From: Cyclobacteriaceae bacterium
GTDB taxonomy: Bacteria > Bacteroidota > Bacteroidia > Cytophagales > Cyclobacteriaceae
Reading direction: 5' to 3'
Length of the DNA stretch: 64,000 nucleotides
Assembly (NCBI GenBank): GCA_016787725.1
Contig: JAEUTZ010000006.1
Coordinates: 62,001 to 126,000, forward strand
Shown here one piece after another: positions 29,791-55,770 of this stretch. The notes beneath the pieces were generated by a model. The model searched no databases, was not told where the DNA came from, and saw only the letters and a list, made by a program, of their open reading frames with translations. Position numbers and translations under genes: made by a program. Each line of letters begins with the position of its first letter. The first letter of the stretch is position 1.

Positions 29791-30441
29791 ATGATTGAGG
29801 ACAACTACAAACAGCGCGGATTGCGCAATAAACTGGTCAAAAAACTCCGTGAAAAGGGCATTTTCGATGAGGGGGTTTTAAGCGCCATTGGAAAAGTGCC
29901 TCGCCATGCATTTTTTGATGATGCCCTGCTTGTCCATGCCTACGAAGACAAGGCTTTTCCAATTGGGGAAGGTCAGACGATTTCACAGCCTTTTACAGTA
30001 GCCTTTCAGACCGAAAAGTTAAAAATAAAGCCTGGCGAGAAGGTGCTTGAAATTGGAACCGGATCCGGCTACCAGGCCGCAATTTTAGTTGAAATGGGGG
30101 CCAAGGTGTATACCATTGAATATAATAATAAACTTTACGAGCGCACCCGGAAATTTCTTCCCCTTCTGGGCTACCAACCCTTCTTTTTTTACGGAGATGG
30201 ATCCAAAGGAATTCCTGCGAAAGCCCCGTATGATAAAATTATCGTAACTGCCGGAGCCCCTGTTGTGCCTACCGCGCTTACCGATCAACTGGCAGACGGT
30301 GGAATTCTGATTATCCCTGTGGGGGATCGCGAACGTCAAAAAATGCTGCGCATCACCAAGCTAAATGGTAAACTCAAGCAAGAAGAATTTGAATTCTTTG
30401 CCTTCGTACCGCTCTTAGGCGAGCAGGGATGGAAGCAATGA
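29791..30441 (+). CDS. pcm: Protein-L-isoaspartate O-methyltransferase
   Basis: 216 residues, usual length. 'GQTISQP' at 61-67 is the family signature; SAM-binding motif LEIGTGSGYQ at 86-95. The enzyme methylates abnormal isoaspartyl residues so that damaged proteins can be repaired. The last 27 bp overlap the 3' end of the convergent thrC gene. Confidence 0.95.
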   Translation: MIEDNYKQRGLRNKLVKKLREKGIFDEGVLSAIGKVPRHAFFDDALLVHAYEDKAFPIGEGQTISQPFTVAFQTEKLKIKPGEKVLEIGTGSGYQAAILVEMGAKVYTIEYNNKLYERTRKFLPLLGYQPFFFYGDGSKGIPAKAPYDKIIVTAGAPVVPTALTDQLADGGILIIPVGDRERQKMLRITKLNGKLKQEEFEFFAFVPLLGEQGWKQ

Positions 30442-31719
30442 TTTTAATTCTTCAAACTTGGCAGAGACAGGAATGGAAGTTTTCTTACCTGCAAGAAACT
30501 TGTTCAATCGTTCAGGTAGTTCGGGTTTGGTGTGAATAGCTTCTTCCACTACCTCCATAAACTTGGCAGAATGTGCCGTCTCCAGAAACACTCCCGAGTA
30601 TTCAGGATGCGCCTGTAGGAACGTTTTCAAACCAAGATATCCCACGGCTCCATGTGGATCCAAGACATACTGGCTCTTCTCAAAAACTGATTTCATCGCC
30701 CCTTTCGTCTCCGCATCGGTAAATGAATATCCTGCTACATCATTCGAGAACGCCTTCGCCTCCTGATTATACAAATCGAGCATTCGCACAAAATTACTGG
30801 GATTGCCAACATCCATCGCATTGCTGATTGTTTGTTTGGAGATACGTGGCAGAAACACACCCGACTTCAAAAATTCAGGAACAACTGCATTGACATTGGT
30901 AGCCGCAACAAATTTAGCAATTGGCAGTCCCATCCTTTTGGCAATTAATCCTGCTGTCAGATTCCCGAAATTGCCGCTCGGTACGGATACCACCAATGGC
31001 CGTCTGGTTTTCGCAAGATGTGCATAGGCATAGAAGTAATAGAATGATTGAGGAATCAACCGTGCGATGTTGATGGAATTGGCTGAAGTTAGGAAAAAAA
31101 CTTGCTTCAGATCCGCATCCATAAAAGCCGCTTTCACCAACCGCTGGCAATCATCAAAAGTACCCATCACTTCCAGTGCGGTAATGTTTTTACCCAAGGT
31201 GGTGAATTGTTTTTCCTGTACCTCACTCACTTTGCCGGCTGGATATAAGACTACCACACGGGTACCGGGTACATTTAAGAACGCATTTGCAACCGCACTG
31301 CCTGTATCGCCCGATGTGGCTACTAAAATTGTTATTGTTTTGTTCTCCTGTTGGGCAAAATAGCCAAGCAACCCGGATAGAAACCGGGCCCCAAAATCCT
31401 TAAAGGCCAGGGTAGGTCCATGAAATAATTCCTGGCAGTAAACATTTTTCTCAATCGCTACCAACGGTGCATCGAATTGAATCGTGTGCGCAATGATTTT
31501 CCTTAGCTCATCCTCGGGCACATCATCATCGAGAAATCGTACTGCCACTTCAAACCCAATTTGTCCGAGTGTTAAGTCTGCTAAAGCGTTGATAAAAAAC
31601 TCCGGTAGAACCGGAATATACTCGGGCATGTACAACCCATTGTCCGGAGCCAACCCCTGGATCACAGCCTCGCGTAAACTAACTTTTCGATGTCGGTTGT
31701 TGGTACTATAATACTTCAT
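30415..31719 (-). CDS. thrC: Threonine synthase
   Basis: 434 residues. PLP lysine K107 in HGPTLAFKDFG; 'ATSGDTGSAVANAF' and 'SVPSGNFGNLTAGLIAKRMG' are family motifs. Converts O-phosphohomoserine to threonine, the last step of the pathway. Its ATG overlaps the thrB stop codon by 4 bp (ATGA), indicating translational coupling, and it is last in the thrABC operon. Confidence 0.97.
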   Translation of the reverse strand: MKYYSTNNRHRKVSLREAVIQGLAPDNGLYMPEYIPVLPEFFINALADLTLGQIGFEVAVRFLDDDVPEDELRKIIAHTIQFDAPLVAIEKNVYCQELFHGPTLAFKDFGARFLSGLLGYFAQQENKTITILVATSGDTGSAVANAFLNVPGTRVVVLYPAGKVSEVQEKQFTTLGKNITALEVMGTFDDCQRLVKAAFMDADLKQVFFLTSANSINIARLIPQSFYYFYAYAHLAKTRRPLVVSVPSGNFGNLTAGLIAKRMGLPIAKFVAATNVNAVVPEFLKSGVFLPRISKQTISNAMDVGNPSNFVRMLDLYNQEAKAFSNDVAGYSFTDAETKGAMKSVFEKSQYVLDPHGAVGYLGLKTFLQAHPEYSGVFLETAHSAKFMEVVEEAIHTKPELPERLNKFLAGKKTSIPVSAKFEELKSLLPSLLA

Positions 31720-32651
31720 GTGCGCTCAGTAATATAGGCCCCGCGTTGATTAATTTTTGATACATACACATCGGCTATTAGCTCCCGCCTTTCGAATTCC
31801 TGTTGAATCGCCTCGCCTGCTCGTGTTGCGATGGGACGTGATTCACTCAAGGCAAATACCGTTGGACCAGAACCCGAAATTCCAAATCCCAGGGCACCCG
31901 ACTCCAGGGCTACGGTACGCATTTTATCAAACCCGGGAATGAAGGCAGCGCGGATGGGTTCTGCAATCACATCCTTCAAGGATCGACCGATCAAAGCGTA
32001 GTCCGGCTTCATTAACCCGATCATCAGGCCGGCAATATTTCCACTTTGCGTGATGGTATCCTTTAATGAAATCGATTGCCGCAATACTTTCCGTGAATCT
32101 TCTGTCTTCAGTTCAAGATGAGGATGAACAAGGGTACAGTACATTTTTTCCGTAGCATCAATCCGGATTACATCGAGTGGGGAATAATCCCTGACCAGCA
32201 CAAAACCACCCAATAACGAAGGAGCTACGTTATCGGCATGTGCCGACCCACAGGCTACGCGTTCCGCTTCCATCGCATGCGGCACCAACTGTTCACGCGT
32301 AAGCGGATTACCCATCAGTTCATTTATTGCAACCAAAGCTGCTACTCCACTGGCTGCACTGGATCCCATGCCACTTCCTAGCGGCAGGTTTTTATTCAAC
32401 TCAATATCAACGCCCTGGTTTAACCCTAAGGAGCGCAGGAATGATGCGACAGCAACACTGGCTGTATTTTTCATAGCCTCACGTGGGAGCTTTCCACCGT
32501 CTCCGGTAATTGATACTAGTTGAATCAACTCATCCTTCCGCAACGTTATACGCACTTCATCACCAGGATGATCCACCGCAAAGCCTAGTATATCAAACCC
32601 GCAACATACATTAGCTACGGTGGCCGGAGCAAAGGCTTTTATTGAGGTCAT
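31716..32651 (-). CDS. thrB: Homoserine kinase
   Basis: 311 residues, GHMP kinase family. ATP-binding loop PLGSGMGSSAASG at about 90-102; N-terminal 'APATVANVCCGFDILGFA'; C-terminal 'GFGISGSGPTVFAL'. Phosphorylates homoserine. It starts 6 bp after the thrA stop and overlaps thrC by 4 bp. Confidence 0.97.
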   Translation of the reverse strand: MTSIKAFAPATVANVCCGFDILGFAVDHPGDEVRITLRKDELIQLVSITGDGGKLPREAMKNTASVAVASFLRSLGLNQGVDIELNKNLPLGSGMGSSAASGVAALVAINELMGNPLTREQLVPHAMEAERVACGSAHADNVAPSLLGGFVLVRDYSPLDVIRIDATEKMYCTLVHPHLELKTEDSRKVLRQSISLKDTITQSGNIAGLMIGLMKPDYALIGRSLKDVIAEPIRAAFIPGFDKMRTVALESGALGFGISGSGPTVFALSESRPIATRAGEAIQQEFERRELIADVYVSKINQRGAYITERT

Positions 32652-32657
32652 GGAAGG

Positions 32658-35114
32658 TTAGTTGTTTGCATAGTTACCAATCCGGATTATATCCGCAAAA
32701 ACCCCAGCCGCTGTTACTTCTGCTCCCGCGCCAGGACCCCGAATAACCATGGGCCGCTCGTTATAGCGCTCCGTGGTTAATAAAATAATATTGTCACTTC
32801 CGGAAAGAGAGTAAAACGGATGTTGTGCATTGACCGATCCTAAACGAATACTTGTTTTCCCATCTTTCAAAACCGCCATATACCTCAACTTTTCATTGCG
32901 TGAAGCTGCCTCCGTTGCCAATTTCTCAAAGTAGGAATTGTGCTTCTCCAATTTTGTAAAGAATGCATCTACGGCCAACTCACCCCGGCAATCCTCGGGC
33001 ACTAAGCTTTCAACCTGAATATCCCCTAACTCCAGAGACAATCCTGCTTCCCGCGAAAGGATCAGAATTTTTCGGGCCACATCCATGCCATTAAGATCAT
33101 CGCGGGGATCGGGCTCGGTATACCCCTTCGCTTTTGCCGCTTTAACCACTTCACTGAATTGATCGCCAGGCTGAAAGGTGCTGAAGATGTAGTTCAATGT
33201 TCCGCTTAGTACTGCTTCAATTCCAATCACCGCATCCCCGCTGATCAGTAAGTCATTAAGTGTGTTGATGACAGGAAGTCCGGCACCGACATTGGTTTCG
33301 TACAAAAACTTAACGCCACGCTTTTGAGCCGCTTGCTTCAGCGTTTGGTACTTCTGCATGGACCCTGAATTCGCCTTTTTGTTAGGCGTTACAATCGAGA
33401 TGTTGGAAGAAAGTATGGCTTCGTAATGATCAGTAACTTCTGTGCTGGACGTGCAGTCTACGAAAATGCTATTCGACAGGTTCAGGCTCATCATCGTACC
33501 CATATAGGTATTCAGGTTCATCGCCTCTCCTACTTCCAGCATTTGGGCAACTGCGACTTCAAGACCTAAGCCATCTTCATTAAACAACAACTTTTTACTG
33601 TTGGCTATCCCCACCACATGTACCTCGATATGGTTTTGGCTGGCCAACTGGTTGTATTGTTTCTGAATCATGGCTAATAATGACTTCCCAATCAGACCTG
33701 TTCCTACCAGAAACACATTTAACACCTTACGATCCGACAGGAAGAATGCCTCGTGTAAAACATTCAATGCTTTCGCAATATCTTGTTGATGAATCACAGC
33801 CGAAATATTCAGTTCAGAAGACCCTTGTGCAATGGCATTGATATTAATCCCACTTTTTCCCAATGCACCGAACATCCGTCCGCTGGTACCGGGGTTGTGT
33901 TTCATGTTTTCTCCTACAATCGCCACAATGGATAGATGTTCCTCCACCTTCACTTCATCCATCTCCTGACTTCGGATTTCATATTGAAATTCCTTTTCGA
34001 TGGCGCGTTTTGCCTGGTTCGATTTGCTGCCTTCGATGGCAAAGCAGATGGAGTGCTCGGAGGATGCCTGACTGATTAAAATCACGCTAATGTTTTCTTT
34101 GGCCAGGGTGCCAAACAAACGCATGGAAACACCTACCACACCAACCAGGCCACTACCCTGTACACTAAGCAAACTAATCTTATCCATCGAAGAAATTCCC
34201 TTAATGATCAGGTCACGGCCATTGGATTGATCGCTGATCACGGTGCCCGCAAAGGTTGGATTGAATGTATTCTTGATCCAGATGGGAATATGATTCACCA
34301 TGGCCGGTTGCATGGTAGCCGGAAAAATTACTTTAGCTCCAAAATGAGAAAGCTCCATGGCCTCCTCATAGGACATTTCTTTTACCGTAAATGCCTTCTT
34401 TACCTTACGGGGATCGGCTGTCATCATGCCGTCCACATCGGTCCAGATTTCCAATGTAGATGCCTTCAGGGCTCCCGCAAAAATCGCAGCCGTGTAATCG
34501 GAACCACTCCGACCAATGGTGGTGGTTTCTCCAGACGAGGATGATCCGATAAAGCCCGTAATCACTTGCAACTCTCCATGAACATCAAAGTATTCACGAA
34601 TCAACCGGTTGGTCGTTTGAAAGTCAATCCGGGCATTCCCAAAATGATTATCCGTTCGAACTACCAGGCGGGCATCCAGAAATTCTGCTGCCAATCCCTG
34701 ATCTTTTATCGCCTCAGCAATAATGAATGCCGATAATCGCTCGCCAAAACTCATGATGTAATCGAGGGTTCGCAGCGTTCGCTCCTTCACGAGAAATACT
34801 CCATGCAACACATCTTCCAGTTCATTGATCATGAACTTCACCTGCGCGATTACTCCACTTTGCTTCTGAATCCCGATTAAGTCACGCACCGCATCCAGAT
34901 GTCTGGTTTCCAGGGCTTGCAGGTGGGTCTTGTATTCACTGTTTCCCGCCAACGCCAATGCGCTCATCGTGATGAGCACATCGGTTACTCCACCGAAGGC
35001 AGAGAATACAACGGCAATGCTATCTTCCTTGAGGCCGGGCTTTATAATTTCAATGACCGAACGTATGCGCTCCGATTTCCCTACCGATGAACCACCAAAT
35101 TTTAAAATTTTCAT
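32658..35114 (-). CDS. thrA: Bifunctional aspartate kinase / homoserine dehydrogenase I
   Basis: 818 residues. Aspartokinase domain with KFGGSSVG at 4-11 and 'GRSGSDYTAAIFAGAL'; two ACT regulatory segments around 300-450; homoserine dehydrogenase from about 464 (NVFLVGTGLIG) with 'NVGAGLPVINTLNDLL' and 'GTLNYIFSTF'. Catalyses the first and third steps of threonine synthesis, usually inhibited by threonine through the ACT domains. First gene of thrABC and preceded by a Thr-rich leader peptide, so transcriptional or translational control by threonyl-tRNA is likely. Confidence 0.97.
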   Translation of the reverse strand: MKILKFGGSSVGKSERIRSVIEIIKPGLKEDSIAVVFSAFGGVTDVLITMSALALAGNSEYKTHLQALETRHLDAVRDLIGIQKQSGVIAQVKFMINELEDVLHGVFLVKERTLRTLDYIMSFGERLSAFIIAEAIKDQGLAAEFLDARLVVRTDNHFGNARIDFQTTNRLIREYFDVHGELQVITGFIGSSSSGETTTIGRSGSDYTAAIFAGALKASTLEIWTDVDGMMTADPRKVKKAFTVKEMSYEEAMELSHFGAKVIFPATMQPAMVNHIPIWIKNTFNPTFAGTVISDQSNGRDLIIKGISSMDKISLLSVQGSGLVGVVGVSMRLFGTLAKENISVILISQASSEHSICFAIEGSKSNQAKRAIEKEFQYEIRSQEMDEVKVEEHLSIVAIVGENMKHNPGTSGRMFGALGKSGININAIAQGSSELNISAVIHQQDIAKALNVLHEAFFLSDRKVLNVFLVGTGLIGKSLLAMIQKQYNQLASQNHIEVHVVGIANSKKLLFNEDGLGLEVAVAQMLEVGEAMNLNTYMGTMMSLNLSNSIFVDCTSSTEVTDHYEAILSSNISIVTPNKKANSGSMQKYQTLKQAAQKRGVKFLYETNVGAGLPVINTLNDLLISGDAVIGIEAVLSGTLNYIFSTFQPGDQFSEVVKAAKAKGYTEPDPRDDLNGMDVARKILILSREAGLSLELGDIQVESLVPEDCRGELAVDAFFTKLEKHNSYFEKLATEAASRNEKLRYMAVLKDGKTSIRLGSVNAQHPFYSLSGSDNIILLTTERYNERPMVIRGPGAGAEVTAAGVFADIIRIGNYANN

Positions 35115-35122
35115 AATAAACG

Positions 35123-35139
35123 TCTGAAATCACTTCAGA
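35123..35139 (-). promoter_or_regulatory. Small hairpin just before thrA
   Basis: TCTGAA/TTCAGA stem with a 5-nt loop, ending 8 nt before the thrA start codon on the minus strand. Too weak for a classical terminator but placed to affect thrA translation initiation as part of the leader. Confidence 0.35.
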
Positions 35140-35190
35140 TTTTGATTTTGGAATTAAGTACTAGGATGTTATGAGAAAGCAGAAATATGT

Positions 35191-35204
35191 CGGGAGCTAC
35201 CCCG
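35191..35204 (-). promoter_or_regulatory. GC-rich hairpin at the end of the thr leader ORF
   Basis: On the minus strand CGGGG-UAGC-UCCCG can form a 5-bp stem (one G-U pair) with a tetraloop that contains the leader stop codon. It lies 3' of the Thr codons, within reach of a ribosome stalled on them. Confidence 0.4.
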
Positions 35205-35262
35205 TAATCGTGGTGGTGGTTGTCTCAATAGAGATTGAGGCCGGGTACAAAAGAAGGGTCAT
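35197..35262 (-). CDS. thrL: thr operon leader peptide (attenuator)
   Basis: A 21-residue ORF, too short for usual gene calling: ATG at 35262, TAG at 35199-35197. Residues 14-20 read TTTTTIT (codons ACA ACC ACC ACC ACG ATT ACG), preceded by a second Thr and two more Ile codons, i.e. 7 Thr and 3 Ile of 21. The composition mirrors the thrL leader of enterobacteria, which senses both Thr and Ile. It ends 82 nt before thrA, the first gene of thrABC, on the same strand. The inverted repeat CTCAAT/ATTGAG lies inside its coding region (35224-35239). Function as a ribosome-stalling sensor of charged tRNA-Thr is inferred from composition and position. Confidence 0.85.
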   Translation of the reverse strand: MTLLLYPASISIETTTTTITG

Positions 35263-35377
35263 GCAGAAAAACACGAAGTACGATTATTTCACGCAAGAAG
35301 CACATTGGGCTCGGGTATTGCAAAATATTTTTATGATTTTTGCTGCGCAGAAAACAAACTAACAGTAAGTAGCCACC

Positions 35378-55567: not shown

Positions 55568-55579
55568 CCGTTGGGGGCT

Positions 55580-55692
55580 GCTTATCTTCTCCTAATCCGA
55601 TTGAAATTGATCAGGAAGGGAATTAGCACCAAGTTGTTGGCAAGGTTGCTAAGACATCATCGGGCCCGGTCCCTCAGTCTTTCTGGATAAGC
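55580..55692 (-). promoter_or_regulatory. SAM-I (S-box) riboswitch
   Basis: Matches the S-box pattern in order on the minus strand: P1 GCUUAUC (55692-55686) and its partner GAUAAGC (55586-55580), 'CAGAAAGA', 'GAGGGAC', 'GGCCCGAUGA' (kink-turn), 'UUAGCAACC', 'GGUGCUAAUUCC'. It lies 47 nt before the first gene of metH-metH-metF. SAM binding is expected to shut off the methionine operon. Confidence 0.95.
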
Positions 55693-55770
55693 GGTGCAAA
55701 GAAACACAATTAGGTAATAATAATAAAATCAGGAACCCTTAATTTTGGGTGGAATAAAGTACGACTCTCT

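Follow-up and report, generated by a model that had tools for sequence, protein, structure and literature searches.

A short open reading frame rich in threonine and isoleucine codons lies directly ahead of the threonine operon thrABC in the window (the whole stretch of 64,000 nt analysed here), and we read it as a leader peptide that would sense threonine and isoleucine and control thrABC by ribosome-mediated attenuation without an intrinsic terminator, a statement towards which, taken as a whole, we lean modestly. Its parts differ in strength. Sequence comparison establishes the leader, its conserved control codons, a hairpin at its stop codon and the absence of a U-run terminator; the leader itself is nearly certain, it would almost certainly act as an amino-acid sensor, and a response of thrABC to threonine and isoleucine is very likely. 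A contribution of Rho to the early end of transcription is an informed guess, to which we give about an even chance.

The frame translates as MTLLLYPASISIETTTTTITG-stop, with 7 Thr and 3 Ile among its residues, and its TAG stop codon (35199–35197, minus strand) is separated from the thrA ATG by 82 nt; translation might also begin further upstream, at an in-frame GTG (35274). The frame, its composition and this spacing are, to the base, those of the first-pass annotation, as are the coordinates of the three inverted repeats that it placed within the frame, at its stop codon and just before thrA (Table 1). The operon named there is genuine: downstream of the leader, thrA, thrB and thrC overlap or are spaced 6 nt apart. 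Upstream of the leader, the block CAAAAATCATAAAAA..TTTGCAATAC (35315–35342, minus strand) shows a strong likeness among close relatives and may be a promoter site, with no known promoter motif confirmed in it. The promoter motif TAnnTTTG was present in 4 of 78 family upstream stretches against 8.6% of shuffles, and since this is no excess we claim neither a promoter nor a transcription start.

Table 1. Coordinates within the window of the leader, its associated RNA elements and the thr genes.
Feature	Position	Strand	Remarks
Leader peptide ORF, 21 codons + TAG	35197..35262	minus	kept in 44/45 loci
Control codons Thr-Thr-Thr-Thr-Thr-Ile-Thr	35203..35223	minus	Thr/Ile 82–100% over 45 loci at each of the seven codons before the last Gly
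ORF-internal hairpin CTCAAT-CTCT-ATTGAG	35224..35239	minus	kept in most of 12 clade members
Stop-codon hairpin CGGG-GTAGCT-CCCG (strand 1 with near strand 2)	35191..35204	minus	family-wide
ACATAT, local copy of the CATAT box	35185..35190	minus	CATAT counts in leaders
Second ACAT, remnant of the repeated unit (CTCCCG)ACAT of the window clade	35166..35169	minus	
Pre-thrA hairpin TCTGAA-GTGAT-TTCAGA	35123..35139	minus	stem of at least 4 pairs in 12/12 clade members
C-rich, G-poor untranslated stretch between leader and thrA	35115..35196	minus	(C-G)/(C+G) 0.41
thrA, aspartokinase-homoserine dehydrogenase	32658..35114	minus	fused, 818 aa
thrB, homoserine kinase (GHMP family)	31716..32651	minus	
thrC, threonine synthase	30415..31719	minus	

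When the 300 nt ahead of thrA were shuffled by mononucleotides, 1 of 4000 shuffles gave a frame running from start to stop with at least seven Thr/Ile codons out of eight; the window reaches seven of eight, as do 40 of 78 loci of its family (1 of 780 shuffles). Families bear anonymous labels here (f23, f24 and so on), the window's own being f1. A close set was drawn from the best 80 thrA relatives, the nearest being Cyclobacteriaceae, Flammeovirgaceae, Chryseolinea, Ohtaekwangia and similar; three that did not reach the thrA start (L042, L043 and L057) were dropped, and 44 of the remaining 77 made up the close group, with best-segment ThrA identities of 64–85%. In 44 of 45 loci, namely the window and these relatives, a Thr/Ile-rich ORF ending in ITG-stop lies 79–141 nt ahead of thrA, the one exception (L037) having retained a short Thr run and lost the ITG-stop. 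No such leader was found in the 33 remoter loci of the best 80, where the maximum was 5 Thr/Ile in 8 codons. A sequence-only model (R1) gave one significant match in the window's genome, which is this leader (the next at E 0.75), and matched 70 of 391 genomes of the order at E <=0.1. From other genera of the family, 34 of 35 matches were fetched (G296 was left out), and 33 lay upstream of a thrA homologue with the leader end in place, the exception being the weak match L178 (E 0.048). Ten matches fetched from outside the family had no thrA in the stretch examined and were taken as chance. A convincing leader was lacking in 6 of 17 own-family regions, 11 of the 17 having been chosen for lacking a model match. 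The first-pass annotation had let its reading stand or fall with conservation of the Thr run in relatives, and the run is kept both in the close group and in other genera of the family; by this comparison (44/45 loci, 33/34 model matches) the ORF upstream of thrA is there beyond chance.

Synonymous change is free within the Thr run, where ACC, ACA, ACT and ACG are mixed across the 45 loci, as are ATT and ATC, and the last leader codons are nearly frozen as DNA (ATT in 44, ACG in 45 and GGG in 45 of the 45). Free wobble in the run together with a frozen end would be expected of a run that matters as peptide and an end that serves as RNA too. Over the last 13 codons these loci average 4.6 Thr, 4.3 Ile and 0.04 Met. 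Among the leaders of other genera (L138–L173), in many of which Met takes the place of Ile (e.g. GMTTMITG), 33 average 5.5 Thr, 1.3 Ile and 1.5 Met, and 14 of these 33 carry at least two Met, compared with 0 of 45 in the window's group. As Thr, Ile and Met all derive from homoserine, it is conceivable that the leader's gauge has been re-tuned between sets of end products. A histidine reading in the third frame was also considered; it gives His/Tyr mixed with Asn/Asp (75 of 328 of these four) and is not a kept frame. In a genome of the same genus label (G005), locus L119 combines a thrA homologue of 39% identity with a leader holding nine consecutive Thr (TTTTTTTTTPYGV) and CCCCGTACGGGG directly ahead of the stop codon.

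Only one of the window's three hairpins, that around the leader stop codon, is common to the whole family. Of 78 family loci, 77 contain the motif ACGGG(G/T)TRR, and a CCC that opposes ACGGGG follows the stop codon within 11 nt, again in 77 of 78. A stem of at least four Watson-Crick pairs encloses the stop codon in 63 of the 81 leaders of the family (8% of shuffles), and the stretch scores a mean z of -1.5 against its own shuffles, lying below -1 in 58 of 78 loci. The other two hairpins of the first-pass annotation are not shared in this way: the ORF-internal one covaries weakly among the 12 members of the window clade and is no family-wide feature, and the pre-thrA one is replaced outside that clade by a hairpin of different sequence nearer the leader, its stem at the similar place within the clade being poor in two of the 12 members (L010 and L011). 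Compensatory change, for which the first-pass annotation had proposed to look in the hairpins, is weak: over the 12 rows of the clade the three together were paired equally well by 97 of 500 shuffles and their covariation score was reached by 104 of 500, not clearly above shuffles.

In the first 60 nt behind the stop codon, 61 of 110 leaders have a CATAT box, where shuffles predict 10.7. It starts 14–17 nt past the stop codon in 40 of these 61, and it was found in the last 100 nt of 7 of 57 leaderless regions. All 12 members of the window clade have the second ACAT 23–27 nt past the stop codon, and eight have the nearer copy. A downstream hairpin, mostly with a CAG loop, lies about 50–57 nt on in 21 relatives whose leaders stop with TAA or TGA; 85% of the cells of its stem are paired (65% shuffled), and its covariation score is 0.598 (0.245 shuffled; maximum 0.338 when slid), the latter score and the slid control being the fairer measures because centring on the best triloop biases toward pairing. 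The stability of the post-leader stretch exceeds that of its shuffles only slightly (mean z -0.76; 28 of 78 loci below -1).

No U-run terminator was found between leader and thrA in the window by two scans, in agreement with the first-pass annotation, and its suspicion of a mechanism unlike that of E. coli fits the scarcity of intrinsic terminators in the family (2 of 82 leaders, by a scan that missed one of four positive controls, the his leader L293). The whole of Rfam gave no leader match in the window, two unrelated sub-threshold matches lying near the leader, and none in ten related loci. In the whole window only a SAM riboswitch reaches the gathering score (RF00162, 70.6 bits; 55579–55693, minus strand). 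The covariance model of Bacteroid-trp RNA (RF01692) had no match in the window or its genome; it matched 4 of 22 genomes, all of family f26, and the matches carry Trp-Trp-Trp leaders and a U-run terminator.

With no terminator, two routes are left, Rho and translation, and we propose a course of events that includes the former. When charged Thr and Ile tRNA are plentiful, the ribosome would reach the stop codon, cover the ACGGGG strand and depart, and the C-rich untranslated RNA then left free would permit an early end of transcription, most likely aided by Rho. When either tRNA is scarce, the ribosome would stall in the Thr run and leave ACGGGG free for the near or the far strand; this pairing would reshape the downstream stretch so that thrABC is read, the re-folding to read-through being the weakest step. 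A rho gene is present in the window's genome (TIGR00767, 670 bits, above cut-off). Behind the leader, all 78 family loci have more C than G (mean skew 0.37), and the skew of the window is higher than that of all 20 other upstream intergenic stretches measured (mean 0.04, sd 0.14). Elsewhere the skew is 0.30 in f42, 0.03 in f23 (with terminators) and 0.04 in f24 (stop hairpin, no terminators), and 33 leaderless thrA regions show a mild one of 0.11, positive in 22; the lack of C excess in f24 and the mild excess in leaderless regions make C-richness no clean mark.

Two results count against the far strand as a competitor for ACGGGG: it pairs weakly in the window (-5.8 kcal/mol; family mean -8.7 kcal/mol), and over the loci the cognate pairing of stop and far strand does not surpass that of permuted combinations (1993 of 2000 as good). 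Among 82 leaders ending in G's, nearly all of f1, positions +20 to +48 contain CCC in 68 and GGG in 6, and among 21 leaders ending in C's they contain GGG in 13 and CCC in 3. The polarity of the far strand thus tracks that of the near strand across families, few families meaning few independent events, and this suggests that the leader strand could choose between two partners. In the f23 leaders L235 and L245, GGAGGAAG is complementary to the 5' arm of the terminator, and a choice of partner by the leader strand would work likewise there, through that arm.

Control could also lie in translation, the leader ribosome setting the openness of the thrA start region with no early end of transcription. 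The Thr run is indeed more complementary to the thrA start (-20 to +20) in cognate than in permuted pairs (0 of 2000 as good, close relatives not being independent), with strong pairings in L005, L006, L009, L013, L046 and L056. However, whether the ribosome was placed on the Thr run or at the stop codon altered the openness of the thrA start by a mean of only 0.01 (78 loci, with a rise in 8 and a fall in 5, the fold holding only 12 nt of thrA for 33), so that the translation coupling put forward in the first-pass annotation, if taken as hiding of the thrA start, finds no support in the folding. In the window itself the pairing of Thr run and thrA start is poor (-4.5), and the pairing of its leader with thrA codons (-27 kcal/mol) is unmatched in the family and, with 142 of 2000 permuted pairs across the family as good, is judged mostly chance. 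We regard translational attenuation as unlikely. Somewhat less likely still is pausing alone as what sets the yield of thrABC, the stop hairpin being a pause hairpin and the polymerase waiting at CATAT until a ribosome opens it. The common position of CATAT would place it about 9–12 nt behind the hairpin, the same spacing as in the E. coli his and trp leader pauses, but in the window and its clade CATA starts just 4–7 nt past the stop codon, directly behind the hairpin, and CATAT is missing from the first 60 nt in 49 of 110 leaders.

Far less probable than either is a classic attenuator of the thrL type whose intrinsic terminator was overlooked. Terminator-type leaders do precede thrA in f23 (5/5) and hisG in the window's own genome, and the scan was imperfect on its controls, yet both scans of the window came out empty and the family as a whole is nearly devoid of terminators. 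That the leader ORF encodes a small protein with a task of its own we find hardly credible: it is conserved and looks translated, but its length and N-terminal half vary freely while only the Thr/Ile run and the RNA at the stop codon are kept, and the replacement of Ile by Met in other genera would be odd for a structured protein. A functionless Thr run arisen by chance can be practically dismissed, being contradicted by the conservation, the shuffles and the leaders of other genera and from outside the family.

Thr/Ile leaders also precede thrA outside f1. The thrA upstream regions of 60 genomes out of 296 (228 with a match at E 1e-90) and 41 further loci gave 101 regions, and a Thr/Ile leader scoring at least 6.5 was present in 34 of them and in 3 of 1010 shuffles. 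Outside the window's family lie 84 of the regions, and 28 of these have such a leader. Four further families have leaders of other sequence with the stop codon in a GC hairpin, mostly without a terminator. Most leaders of f24, f42, f26 and f5 have C's ahead of the stop codon and G's after it (ACAACCCGTTAAGGGTTG, ATTACCCCTTAGGGGT), and the stop hairpin is found in 8/8, 9/9, 3/5 and 1/1 of them respectively, the two f26 leaders without it having a hairpin immediately ahead of the stop codon. Family f23 is reversed, with an intrinsic terminator in 5/5 and the stop hairpin in 0/5, and the remaining families pooled gave 3 terminator matches in 105 leaders, two of these being the stop hairpin itself. 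Loci L112 and L113 (f4) show a similar layout by eye.

In the window's own genome, outside the window (contig C22, around 45191), hisG is preceded by a His leader (MSNTQNIHGHHHHATRISGRSLF, L297) that has an intrinsic terminator. The His leaders L284 and L285, from other genera of the family, carry a stop hairpin (TTCCTCC-TAA-GGAGGAA in L285) followed by ACATATCGCCC or ACACATACCGCCC, and the same scan found no terminator in either; the stop-hairpin design is thus not tied to threonine. Four His leaders of such genera (L283, L284, L285 and L291) end in HHSS, and their stop codon is flanked by TTCCTC and GAGGAA. Ile/Val/Leu-rich leaders followed by U-run hairpins stand before ilvD in L307, L308, L313, L314 and L319, all of other families. 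We consider the case evenly balanced that Bacteroidota have a second, terminator-free class of ribosome-mediated attenuators, recognisable by a GC hairpin that encloses the leader stop codon and behind which a CATAT box and another hairpin often lie. This class would serve thrA in five or more families whose leader ends differ, as well as hisG in some genera of the window's family, replace the terminator attenuator of other operons and families, and act through an RNA polymerase that is paused or engaged by Rho.

Attenuation by leader peptides is well established in Proteobacteria as textbook knowledge, and in enterobacteria the thrL attenuator (Rfam Thr_leader) has a short Thr/Ile-rich leader before the thr operon. 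The leader of the window resembles it in being a short Thr/Ile-rich leader ahead of the same operon, but lacks a U-run terminator, has its stop codon in a short GC hairpin and matches no Rfam family. The f23 leaders are like it in residues, in position before thrA and in phylum, and unlike it in their terminators and the absence of the stop hairpin. Bacteroid-trp RNA, described as a leader-peptide element in Bacteroidota in PMC2864571, differs from it in having a U-run terminator. PMC1262725 predicts leader-peptide attenuation in Actinobacteria, in one case without terminators, and presents Mycobacterium Cys leaders with control codons near the stop and no terminator, for which its authors propose Rho; codon placement and the absence of a terminator are shared with the window, whereas amino acid and phylum differ. 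For Flavobacterium psychrophilum, of the same phylum, one sentence of PMC9723704 speaks of leader-peptide attenuation of amino-acid operons, the same idea as here. Neither a thr leader in Bacteroidota nor a stop-hairpin attenuator was found in the literature covered (titles and the beginnings of abstracts, with few subscription papers); Lopatovskaya et al. (2010), cited in PMC4833913, may hold such leaders, and the available parts of PMC2965389 and PMC7366714 yielded nothing on thrA. The window's leader is likely a Thr/Ile leader-peptide attenuator of the terminator-free variety, a known attenuator type in a different layout, with a switch step that we infer.

A large part of a bacterial family carries a previously unannotated, probable regulator of threonine synthesis. 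The leaders suggest two mutually exclusive designs of amino-acid attenuator within Bacteroidota, one with a terminator and one with a stop-codon hairpin, the latter resting on few bases and having no accepted mechanism. As attenuation of such a kind needs transcription and translation to be coupled, the finding bears on whether the two processes are coupled in Bacteroidota.
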